A stretch of DNA of 64,000 bases, taken from Promethearchaeia archaeon. GTDB lineage: Archaea; Asgardarchaeota; Lokiarchaeia; Sigyniarchaeales; SOKP01. The translations under genes were made by a program, and so were the position numbers. Where the stretch lies: the NCBI GenBank assembly GCA_029856125.1, contig JAHQWJ010000120.1, forward strand, positions 124,001-188,000, in the 5' to 3' direction. Of this stretch, positions 1 to 52,146 are shown one piece after another. Under the pieces are notes generated by a model, which saw nothing but the letters and a program-made list of their open reading frames with translations, was not told where the DNA came from and did no database searches. Numbering within the stretch: position 1 is the first letter of the stretch; every line of letters starts with the position of its first letter.

Positions 1-1419
1 TTTTAGAATTTGATTTTGAACCGTAACATCTAATGCGGTAGTGGGTTCATCTGCTATTAGGAGTTTAGGACTGCAAGCTAATCCCATTGCAATTTGAATT
101 CTCTGTCGCATTCCACCGCTTAATTCATGAGGATATCTATCAATAATTTGCTCTGGAGCTGGAATATTTAATTCTCTTAAAAGATTTTCGCTCCAATCTC
201 TAGCTATACTATATATACTTTTTTCTGGCTGATTAATGGTTTCCATTAGTAATTCTTTTTCCATATGAAGAAGATATACTTCAGCAATCTGATCTCCTAC
301 TTTAAAAACGGGATTAATAGAATTAAGAGGATCTTGAAAAATCATAGTAATCTCTTTTCCTCGGTATTCAAGTATTTTTTCGGATTCCTGCAGTAGGTCT
401 TTGCCTTTAAAGAAAACTTCTCCTTTCATGATTTTTCCAGGTGGACGAACTAATTGAAGAATTGATAAAGCAGTAACAGATTTTCCACAACCAGTTTCAC
501 CAACAAGACCTACTACCTCTCCTTCAAGGATTTTAAAAGAAACCCCCTCTACAGCACGAACAATTCCTTCTTCCGTATAAAAATAGGTAGTGAGATTTTT
601 CACATTTAAAATTACTTTTTCGCCTTCTAGAGATTCAGAATTGGCCGTCCTATCTATATCTATTCCTTCCTGAATCTTCAACTTGCTTTTTTCATGCGCT
701 TTAGGTAAAAATACCTTTTTTGTGAATAGATAAAAAACTAAAACATAAACACCACTAACCACACCAATTAAGATCCGAATATCTTGTTCATATGGCCAAA
801 TCCCAAGTAATCTGGATAAATACATCTCAAAAATAATGAGTTGAATCGTCCACACTCCTAAAGAAGCAGCACTTCCAATTATTTGACTATTTCTAAGTAC
901 CTCCTTTGGAAGTCTGATGTCAATCGAGAGAGTTCTATTTAGTATTGAAGTGAGAGCTCCAAGGATAAATACCATTATTATAGCCCAAATTAATCCTAAA
1001 TGTAATAAATCAGCTCCCCTTAAATCAAAATCTTGTATCTCAATCCCTAATAATCCAAAAGATGTATATACTACAGCCGCAATCCAAGTTATAATTAAAA
1101 TTATCACTAACAATTTTTTAAAGAGCTTAGTCTCGCCTTTTCTCCCAAATATATGATGGAATAGGAAAAAGGCTGTTGTCATTATAGCAAAATGTAATGG
1201 TTGGTTATTTAAAATTACAAAAAATTCAAAATAATATCCTAAATTTTCAAATGGTAAGCGTATTCCTAATGATATACCAAGAACTATAAGAATGCTTATA
1301 AGATTACTTTTAAGGCTAACTTCTTTTGGAATTTGATGCTCTTCAGGAAGCCAGTTATTTAATCGATTAATTATTAAAAATAATAATAAAGCTGCTATTA
1401 TAGCTTCAATTAAAGCCAT
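1..1419 (-). CDS. Oligopeptide ABC transporter ATPase (OppD-like) with N-terminal membrane domain, partial
   Basis: The reading frame is open from the ATG at 1419 to the window edge (473 codons seen, C-terminus missing). Residues 1-235 are hydrophobic with about six or seven membrane helices. A short linker follows, and from about residue 268 there is an OppD/DppD-type ABC ATPase: Walker A GETGCGKS (308-315), a Q-loop in FQDPLNSINP, signature LSGGMRQR, Walker B LLIADEPTTALD. It should energise uptake of di/oligopeptides through the permeases just upstream. OppD proteins normally start at the ATPase domain, so the membrane domain is an extra module I cannot name. The next in-frame stop upstream is at 1459-1461, and no other good start lies between. 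Confidence 0.85.
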   Translation of the reverse strand, partial: MALIEAIIAALLLFLIINRLNNWLPEEHQIPKEVSLKSNLISILIVLGISLGIRLPFENLGYYFEFFVILNNQPLHFAIMTTAFFLFHHIFGRKGETKLFKKLLVIILIITWIAAVVYTSFGLLGIEIQDFDLRGADLLHLGLIWAIIMVFILGALTSILNRTLSIDIRLPKEVLRNSQIIGSAASLGVWTIQLIIFEMYLSRLLGIWPYEQDIRILIGVVSGVYVLVFYLFTKKVFLPKAHEKSKLKIQEGIDIDRTANSESLEGEKVILNVKNLTTYFYTEEGIVRAVEGVSFKILEGEVVGLVGETGCGKSVTALSILQLVRPPGKIMKGEVFFKGKDLLQESEKILEYRGKEITMIFQDPLNSINPVFKVGDQIAEVYLLHMEKELLMETINQPEKSIYSIARDWSENLLRELNIPAPEQIIDRYPHELSGGMRQRIQIAMGLACSPKLLIADEPTTALDVTVQNQILK

Positions 1420-50857: not shown

Positions 50858-51043
50858 ATGGATAAACTTAGGTCACGAATTCAACTACTCTCCCTTCTGA
50901 TAATTTTTTTTATATATAGAGCGATTTCAGCCATAATTTACAATAATTTTCCAGAATTTACCCTTTGGTTGCTGATCTCTATAATTTACGCGATCTCTCT
51001 TATAGTTTTATATGTAGTTTTTAAACAGAGAGATAAGCTTTAA
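50858..51043 (+). CDS. Two-helix micro membrane protein
   Basis: This 61-residue protein has a basic N-terminus (MDKLRSRIQ), two transmembrane helices (about 10-30 and 36-55) and a charged tail. It has a plausible start after AT-rich sequence. Function unknown; a chance hydrophobic frame cannot be excluded. Confidence 0.5.
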   Translation: MDKLRSRIQLLSLLIIFFIYRAISAIIYNNFPEFTLWLLISIIYAISLIVLYVVFKQRDKL

Positions 51044-51098: not shown

Positions 51099-51368
51099 TC
51101 ATTTACTTTTTTTTTTAAAAATGTCAGGTATTAAACCTTCTATTCCTAAGCTTTTTAATACGCTATCCCTAACATCAACTTGTACTCTCATGTTTTGCAT
51201 TACTTTTAATGTATCTCCTAAAGTTTTTGAGAAAGTATCGCTCATTTCCTTAATAGTGTCTGACGTTAGTTTTAGAGATTCCCGTATTGCTAAGTTAGTT
51301 TCATGCAATTCAGCTGTTAACTTTTCCATTGTCTTTCTCATTTCAGAGAGTTCTTCTTTCAGTCCCAT
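51099..51368 (-). CDS. Small coiled-coil protein
   Basis: This 89-residue protein has residues 3-65 with heptad spacing of Leu/Met/Ile (EELSEMRKTMEKLTAELHE, LKLTSDTIKEMSDTFSK), predicting a long coiled coil. It ends in the basic IFKKKSK. Probably a scaffold or oligomerisation factor. No family recognised. Confidence 0.65.
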   Translation of the reverse strand: MGLKEELSEMRKTMEKLTAELHETNLAIRESLKLTSDTIKEMSDTFSKTLGDTLKVMQNMRVQVDVRDSVLKSLGIEGLIPDIFKKKSK

Positions 51369-51535: not shown

Positions 51536-51682
51536 ATGTCGGAATGGAAAAACAGAGTTAAAAAGCCAGTTTCAAACGAGACTTACTGTACGGGCTGAAG
51601 TATGGTTGATGGTTTTATACAAATAATCAATTCATTAAAACAAAAACGTAAAGAAAAAAAAGCAAAAACAACAATAAAATAA
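51536..51682 (+). CDS. Candidate mini-selenoprotein A (in-frame TGA at codon 21)
   Basis: The frame runs ATG 51536 to TAA 51680-51682 through one TGA at 51596-51598 (codon 21). If TGA encodes selenocysteine (U), the product has 48 residues: MSEWKN..., then ETYCTGUSMVDG, a hydrophobic segment FIQIIN, and a Lys-rich tail. CTGU gives a CxxU redox-like pair. The paralogue at 51883 shares the MSE start, U at position 21, Tyr17, Thr19, Ser22 and a basic tail. A structured element follows 4 bases after the stop. Selenocysteine encoding is known in Lokiarchaea. No family is recognised. Confidence 0.7.
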
Positions 51683-51686
51683 AAGA

Positions 51687-51749
51687 AATCTCATAGATTA
51701 AATCAAAAATATTAGGATTTCATCTAAAGTTCTGCAGGAACTCGAGATT
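51687..51749 (+). promoter_or_regulatory. Candidate SECIS-like 3' element A
   Basis: This 63-nt element lies in the 3' untranslated region. P1 pairs AATCTC (51687-51692) with GAGATT (51744-51749). P2 pairs 51694-51704 with 51716-51726 (TAGAT, T/C mismatch, AAATC with GATTT and ATCTA) and has an 11-nt loop. P3 pairs AGTTC (51728-51732) with GAACT (51738-51742) around TGCAG. Copy B has the same three helices. The fold is not the textbook single-hairpin archaeal SECIS, so the name is provisional. Confidence 0.6.
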
Positions 51750-51847
51750 CTACCAAAATTTTAGGTAAAGAAATTTTATGAACAACAATAATAGCCTTCT
51801 AGAACCTTATTTTTTATAAAACACACCCTTAATAGGCTTATTTTTTC

Positions 51848-51860
51848 TATTATACATAAT
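51848..51860 (+). promoter_or_regulatory. TATA box of the second mini-selenoprotein candidate
   Basis: TATTATACATAAT is centred about 29 bp before the ATG at 51883, so transcription should start a few bases before the ATG. The two small genes therefore seem to have separate promoters. Confidence 0.45.
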
Positions 51861-51882
51861 AGTGTAATAGTGATTAAAACTT

Positions 51883-52023
51883 ATGTCTGAAGAAGAAAAC
51901 GAATTTGATTTCGGTTTTGATGATGATTGTTATCAAACCAGTTGATCTCTAATCAATATGTGGTATTTAAGAGCCTTAAAATTACGCAAAACTGAAGAAA
52001 AAAAACACAAACCTAAGAATTAA
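51883..52023 (+). CDS. Candidate mini-selenoprotein B (in-frame TGA at codon 21)
   Basis: The frame runs ATG 51883 to TAA 52021-52023 through a single TGA at 51943-51945, again codon 21. Read as selenocysteine, the product has 46 residues: MSEEENEF, an acidic stretch, DDDCYQTSUSLINMWYLRAL, then a Lys-rich tail. The Cys is five residues before U rather than three as in copy A, so the shared core is YxTxUS. The acidic N-terminus differs from the basic one of copy A. A related structured element follows 8 bases after the stop. Confidence 0.7.
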
Positions 52024-52031
52024 ACAAATAA

Positions 52032-52096
52032 ATCTCGATGGTCAAGTCGTTAAATGGTAGGATTTGATCAATAAGGTCCTCGCAAGGACTTGAGAT
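52032..52096 (+). promoter_or_regulatory. Candidate SECIS-like 3' element B
   Basis: P1 pairs ATCTC (52032-52036) with GAGAT (52092-52096). P2 pairs 52039-52048 with 52061-52070 (ten pairs, two G-U) around a 12-nt loop. P3 pairs GTCC (52076-52079) with GGAC (52086-52089), plus AA/TT with a bulged G. Compared with copy A, P2 keeps its pairing while bases change, including one T-A to A-T swap. The loops share AAAT and a terminal TAG, and the P3 loops share GCA. Confidence 0.6.
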
Positions 52097-52146
52097 AAAA
52101 CAACTTTTTTTTCTGAATTACCTCATTATTTTTATTTAAATAGACG

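Follow-up and report, generated by a model that had tools for sequence, protein, structure and literature searches.

Two tiny Lokiarchaeal gene families with an in-frame TGA and a Y-shaped 3ʹ element probably encode selenoproteins

A stretch of 64,000 nucleotides (nt) from a Lokiarchaeal Promethearchaeia archaeon (contig JAHQWJ010000120.1, positions 124,001 to 188,000; hereafter the window) carries two tandem mini-genes, A and B, each interrupted by a single in-frame TGA. Our comparative analysis indicates that A and B very probably encode tiny Lokiarchaeal selenoproteins, in which UGA would be read as selenocysteine (Sec) and the Y-shaped 3ʹ element of each gene would act as its Sec insertion sequence (SECIS). 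Comparison of sequences supports this reading in three respects: the UGA appears to be translated through, Sec and Cys are interchanged at its position, and the 3ʹ element accompanies only the UGA forms. The initial annotation, made from the window alone, had proposed selenoproteins; it was essentially right, and the case for it was made by the relatives of the two genes.

Results

Conservation of the in-frame TGA

The lengths of the two frames, their single TGA at codon 21 and their TAA ends (Table 1) were all verified, as were the UGA contexts YCTG-U-SM in A and YQTS-U-SL in B. The shared codon number had been held against chance, an argument that was dropped because the TGA position drifts from about codon 17 to codon 28 among homologues; the agreement between A and B is coincidental. 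The window sequence alone is weak evidence, because it holds 25 comparable TGA codons with an ATG 15–45 codons before and 20–45 open codons after. Since TGA works as a stop in 5 of the window's 37 long frames, the genetic code is not altered in general. What places A and B far above chance is the conservation of the TGA in homologues, together with the presence of matching 3ʹ RNA elements with covariation after both genes.

With stop codons of any kind read through, profile searches recovered A from 46 of the 65 genomes in the window's family-level Lokiarchaeal group and from virtually no others among 228 genomes of the phylum, while B was present in 27 of the 65. A first search had found B in ten genomes of the genus, each time with a single in-frame TGA. 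TGA occupies the aligned site of A in 46 genomes and that of B in 26 of 27, a single strong match deviating (B of genome G149); among the strong matches with TGA at the site, two also reach the terminal TAA. When homologues were checked with TGA read as any residue, as had been suggested at the outset, TGA was kept at the aligned position, the sole exception was Cys, and neither another stop codon nor a random residue was encountered there. The A consensus is MSEWK-(variable)-CTGU-GIIDGII..I..IKK.R...KK and that of B is ...FDDDCYxTSU-SMLxMWYxRAxKLRK, in whose core the WY after the TGA is invariant. Among 84,980 species genomes, a named scan for a DNA pattern matched 26 records, all 26 of them metagenome-assembled genomes of Lokiarchaeota.

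No genome with B could be shown to lack A; in the sole apparent case of B alone (G159), A would run off the contig end, 5ʹ of its own 3ʹ element. The two families align weakly with each other (hhalign probability 39%) with their Sec columns matched, and from their sequences an ancient duplication is possible. In three A homologues (L141, L138, and L142 in G156, G160, and G153), Asn or Lys stands in place of the Cys of CTGU (YNTGU, YKSGU), and a different Cys lies further upstream; therefore, the CxxU pair is not strictly needed. Genome G155 carries a second A-B locus and an additional B (L220, C1:189500-192500), which gives three B copies in total, each with UGA and element, and its extra A copy is partly masked by N.

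A natural Cys form and selection past the TGA

The syntenic B orthologue in G149 reads MDEKEDYLDLGFDDDCYYTS-C-SLINMWHRRALKLKHQEEKLKEKE, with TGT (Cys) exactly at the TGA position. No 3ʹ element was found behind this Cys form, while the A gene directly upstream of it retains both TGA and 3ʹ element. Such a Sec/Cys exchange is a classic selenoprotein signature and, judged from sequence, close to decisive. As the element was lost with the Cys form and kept with the TGA forms, the 3ʹ element appears tied to UGA decoding.

Over the 18 codons after the TGA, the ratio of nonsynonymous to synonymous substitution rates (dN/dS) was 0.56 in the coding frame of A compared to 0.95–1.27 in shifted frames, and 0.36 compared to 0.67–1.01 for B. 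Both genes are constrained before as well as after the TGA, indicating that purifying selection on the protein continues past it in A and B. The conservation of core and tail, also raised at the outset, was thus borne out for both, with post-TGA selection specific to the coding frame.

The Y-shaped 3ʹ element

Overlapping or directly following the stop codons of A and B lies an element whose outer stem (AUCUC/GAGAU) encloses two hairpins, the first of about 10 bp and capped by an AAA...UAG apical loop, the second short. In the A element, the first hairpin has the loop AAAAAUAUUAG and the second is GUUC/GAAC; in the B element, the second hairpin is GGUCCU-CGCA-AGGACU. A model built from the window's genus alone (R1) recovered elements in other genera. 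When a further model (R2) was run across the 65 genomes in full, 75 strong elements reached at least 55 bits. Intact A or B frames precede 72 of them; the remaining three follow a broken A frame (G022), an N-masked A (G155), and an A off the contig end (G159). The next-best R2 matches scored 33 bits or less. Weak matches of 30–33 bits, most of them within coding sequence, were taken as chance, aside from one in G025 (L276, C163:5074-5139), a structurally plausible element copy without a recognised mini-gene and possibly a relic.

Among 70 distinct copies, compensatory changes occurred in all 10 pairs of hairpin 1 (129 double-changed cells vs. 31.6 in shuffles) and 96.5% of cells were paired, compared to at most 61% when slid, in an alignment that was fitted to the structure and is hence biased towards it. 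When arms were swapped between elements, pairing in hairpin 1 fell from 95.7% to 78%, and hairpin 2 became weaker as well. Minimum free energy (MFE) folding gave the three-way junction, with outer stem and second hairpin, in 67 of the 70. All 70 carry an AAA...U[AGU]G apical loop on a covarying stem of about 10 bp, hence the loop and stem of type I eukaryotic SECIS-like (eSECIS-like) elements, in which the A run is unpaired and the stem has 7–15 bp. The matching 3ʹ elements that had been noted behind A and B are therefore real, covarying, and recovered across genera, and their description is refined to a SECIS form that would do without AUGA.

In G143 (L125, 1501-1877), A and B are nearly adjacent, A has no element of its own, and a single element lies 3ʹ of B; here the UGA codons of both cistrons may depend on the same SECIS, an arrangement already suggested for hdrA-frhD. 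Scanning the window against Rfam returned nothing at gathering score, and sub-threshold snoRNA-like matches were regarded as chance.

Comparison with known SECIS types

According to the available parts of a recent survey (Huang et al. 2024, PMC11227280), Lokiarchaeal eSECIS-like elements carry an AUGA/GA core. The mini-gene elements share with that type I form, as far as those parts describe it, an A run unpaired in the apical loop and a position just after the stop, and within this genus also the outer stem and second hairpin. Unlike it, they have no AUGA/GA quartet, and hairpin 1 is a continuous helix. A looser published AUGA pattern matched 39 of the 70 elements compared to 31 in shuffles, which is about chance level. 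With euryarchaeal SECIS (eaSECIS) they have in common the location in the 3ʹ untranslated region (3ʹ-UTR), whereas the GAA_A bulge typical of those elements is absent (0/70 vs. 1.6 in shuffles).

The SECIS of the hdrA/frhD cluster in the same genus are alike in Y layout and loop type. MFE folding gave an outer stem and a second hairpin for 16 of 22 elements behind frhD, and the hdrA/frhD apical loops are mostly of a similar AAA...UAG type, e.g., AAAAAUAUUAG. From the shared layout, the strict association with the mini-genes, the natural Cys swap, and the covariation, we infer that the mini-gene elements represent a derived SECIS subtype. It is quite likely that Lokiarchaea hold a second SECIS class without the AUGA/GA kink-turn core, dedicated to the two tiny selenoproteins.

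Selenocysteine machinery

The initial annotation had called for a check of the Sec machinery, which was largely but not wholly found: SepSecS, SelD, PSTK, and tRNA-Sec are present in the window's genome, while EFSec (SelB) was seen only in sister genomes. PSTK is full length with a score below the family cut-off. The two SelD genes carry UGA at the active-site Cys position; they form a tandem pair (L048, G000:C24:346-1383 and 1842-2879) with an AUGA-type SECIS-like sequence behind each. Directly upstream of SepSecS lies a tRNA-Sec gene with two introns, in the anticodon loop and the T loop (L047, G000:C101, approximately 1270-1405, minus strand), and because of these interruptions it escaped ARAGORN and Rfam. 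Across the genus, species carry both introns, the T-loop one only, or none; a T-arm intron in Lokiarchaeal tRNA-Sec was previously known (PMC5330540). After the first search, mini-gene carriers seemed to lack tRNA-Sec, which was ruled out by reading the DNA upstream of SepSecS.

EFSec candidates from a SelB family search turned out to be EF-1A, aIF2-gamma, and a paralogue that resembles SelB. In the window's genome, this SelB-like paralogue (L228, G000:C32) has 366 residues and its N-terminal domain lacks the GTP-binding loop; similar matches occur in most examined genomes of the genus.

The encoded peptides

Neither A nor B had a notable match in Pfam, NCBIfam (at E ≤ 1), or the Protein Data Bank. 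Seven Asgard selenoprotein families are listed in the available parts of the survey cited above (SelD, HdrA, FrhD/VhuD, FrhA/VhuU, Prx-like, AhpF-N-like, and DsbA-like), which describe a search by homology to known families only; a 2026 review (PMC13188914) adds no Asgard family. A and B fall outside these published Asgard selenoproteome lists, as far as the lists are at hand, and the supplementary tables and the 2016 Lokiarchaeota paper may mention them. Like the seven, A and B would use UGA as Sec, and they occur in the same organisms with an RNA element in the 3ʹ-UTR; unlike them, they are only about 45–60 residues long and match none of the seven in profile searches. Small size, and in A the CxxU motif, are shared with the small bacterial CxxU selenoproteins of the CC/Se motif family (NF041239, PMC13188914), which belong to another domain of life, use another SECIS type, and gave no NCBIfam match at E ≤ 1. 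The suggestion of an undescribed family can accordingly be kept, in the form of two: A and B match no known family, all matches of the named scan are Lokiarchaeota, and their sequences point to two selenoprotein families new to the Asgard set, so far as the sources above describe it.

AlphaFold modelled a single helix from about residue 14 or 15 with a basic tail, placing Cys and Sec near the helix N-end. The peptides are thus predicted to consist of a short flexible N-terminus and a long basic amphipathic helix. In both, a thiol would lie near the selenol (CTGU in A, CYxTSU in B). Each peptide may provide a small thiol/selenol centre for redox chemistry or peroxide reduction, with the basic helix docking it on a partner, a membrane, or nucleic acid, a proposal we consider evenly balanced. 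A redox centre of this kind close to the helix start would be the simplest interpretation; such a function is much less certain than Sec decoding.

Promoters and neighbouring genes

TATA-like runs stand upstream of 25 of 44 A genes and 24 of 25 B genes (for B, within 140 nt). Separate TATA boxes for A and B, as first noted, are plausible on this count, and the run upstream of B suggests a separate promoter for this gene. Synteny of the locus holds in most genomes, with a divergent coiled-coil gene on one side and a convergent uridine diphosphate (UDP)-sugar dehydrogenase gene on the other. The coiled-coil protein and a small membrane protein beyond it (Table 1) had no confident Pfam match.

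Table 1. Mini-genes, 3ʹ elements, and neighbouring features in the window
Feature	Position	Strand	Description
Mini-gene A	51536..51682	+	48 codons; TGA 51596-51598; stop TAA; predicted product MSEWKNRVKKPVSNETYCTG-U-SMVDGFIQIINSLKQKRKEKKAKTTIK
Mini-gene B	51883..52023	+	46 codons; TGA 51943-51945; stop TAA; predicted product MSEEENEFDFGFDDDCYQTS-U-SLINMWYLRALKLRKTEEKKHKPKN
3ʹ element of A	51686..51750	+	Y-shaped three-way junction; outer stem AUCUC/GAGAU; proposed AUGA-less SECIS
3ʹ element of B	52030..52098	+	Same Y shape; hairpin loop GUUAAAUGGUAG; fold z-score −3.6
TATA-box-like TTATATAAAA	51497..51506	+	5ʹ of A; read directly from the sequence
TATA-box-like TTTTTTATAAAA	51810..51821	+	Between the 3ʹ element of A and B; read directly from the sequence
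Coiled-coil protein	51099-51368	−	Conserved; divergent from A; syntenic with the mini-genes across genera
Membrane protein	50858-51043	+	61 residues; syntenic with the mini-genes across genera

Discussion

In the proposed mechanism, each mRNA would be translated through its single UGA, selenocysteyl-tRNA would decode this UGA as Sec in both A and B, and the Y-shaped 3ʹ element of each gene would act as a SECIS, presumably recognised by EFSec and a partner. Several observations weigh against this reading. The AUGA/GA core was found in 0 of the 70 mini-gene elements under a strict test, while other SECIS collected from the genus keep it. The Cys-for-Sec swap is known from one genome only (G149). 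AlphaFold confidence is modest (predicted local distance difference test, pLDDT, about 70; predicted template modelling score, pTM, 0.35–0.42). EFSec was not found in the assembly of the window's genome; in sister genomes likely EFSec genes lie about 3–4 kb from SepSecS, and the 3.6-kb SepSecS contig of the window's genome ends short of there, so that its EFSec probably falls in an assembly gap.

Could the TGA simply be an ordinary stop, leaving peptides of about 20 residues and a structured non-coding RNA as the cause of the downstream conservation? TGA does terminate long frames in the window (5/37), and 25 short frames interrupted by it arise there by chance; nevertheless, the purifying selection seen past the TGA acts specifically in the coding frame, WY is invariant behind it in the B core, and the G149 Cys orthologue runs straight through, which strongly disfavours this explanation and leaves it next to no credence. 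It is also extremely improbable that the 3ʹ element makes a near-cognate tRNA insert Cys, Trp, or some other residue at the UGA. Such decoding would fit the missing EFSec, and Sec at the UGA is assigned from sequence; against it, genes for Sec synthesis and tRNA-Sec are present in the organism, as are further selenoprotein genes with UGA, whose SECIS the element resembles, and the residue that replaces the UGA in G149 is Cys.

The 3ʹ element might instead be another conserved RNA with a regulatory role, e.g., in stability or in the response to selenium status, with Sec inserted through a different signal. The lack of the AUGA/GA core and of the euryarchaeal GAA_A bulge in all 70 copies speaks for this, but the element stands at the stop codon of the examined UGA mini-genes (the G143 pair sharing one), is missing behind the Cys version, and has the layout and apical loop common to known SECIS, which makes such a role very unlikely. 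A last alternative concerns function alone and is compatible with Sec decoding: A and B would be selenoproteins serving as selenium or redox sensors, i.e., leader-type peptides reporting Sec supply, and not effectors. Their very small size and the lack of a recognisable enzyme domain agree with it, while the next gene is convergent and the upstream gene divergent, leaving no obvious gene for leader control, and the whole protein is under selection; we regard sensors as unlikely.

Read as selenoproteins, A and B would add two families to a lineage near eukaryote ancestry, for which the known-family survey had seven. Asgard selenoproteomes would thus be undercounted, and taking TGA for a stop would hide selenoproteins of such very small size. 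The natural Sec-to-Cys swap came with loss of the 3ʹ element, which connects this element with the decoding of UGA. A SECIS that lacks the AUGA/GA quartet is directly relevant to what the archaeal machinery recognises within the element, and hence to the origin of eukaryotic SECIS and of SBP2-type recognition. If such a class is real, the kink-turn quartet would be dispensable for archaeal Sec insertion, and recognition would proceed via the apical A/UAG loop and the three-way junction.
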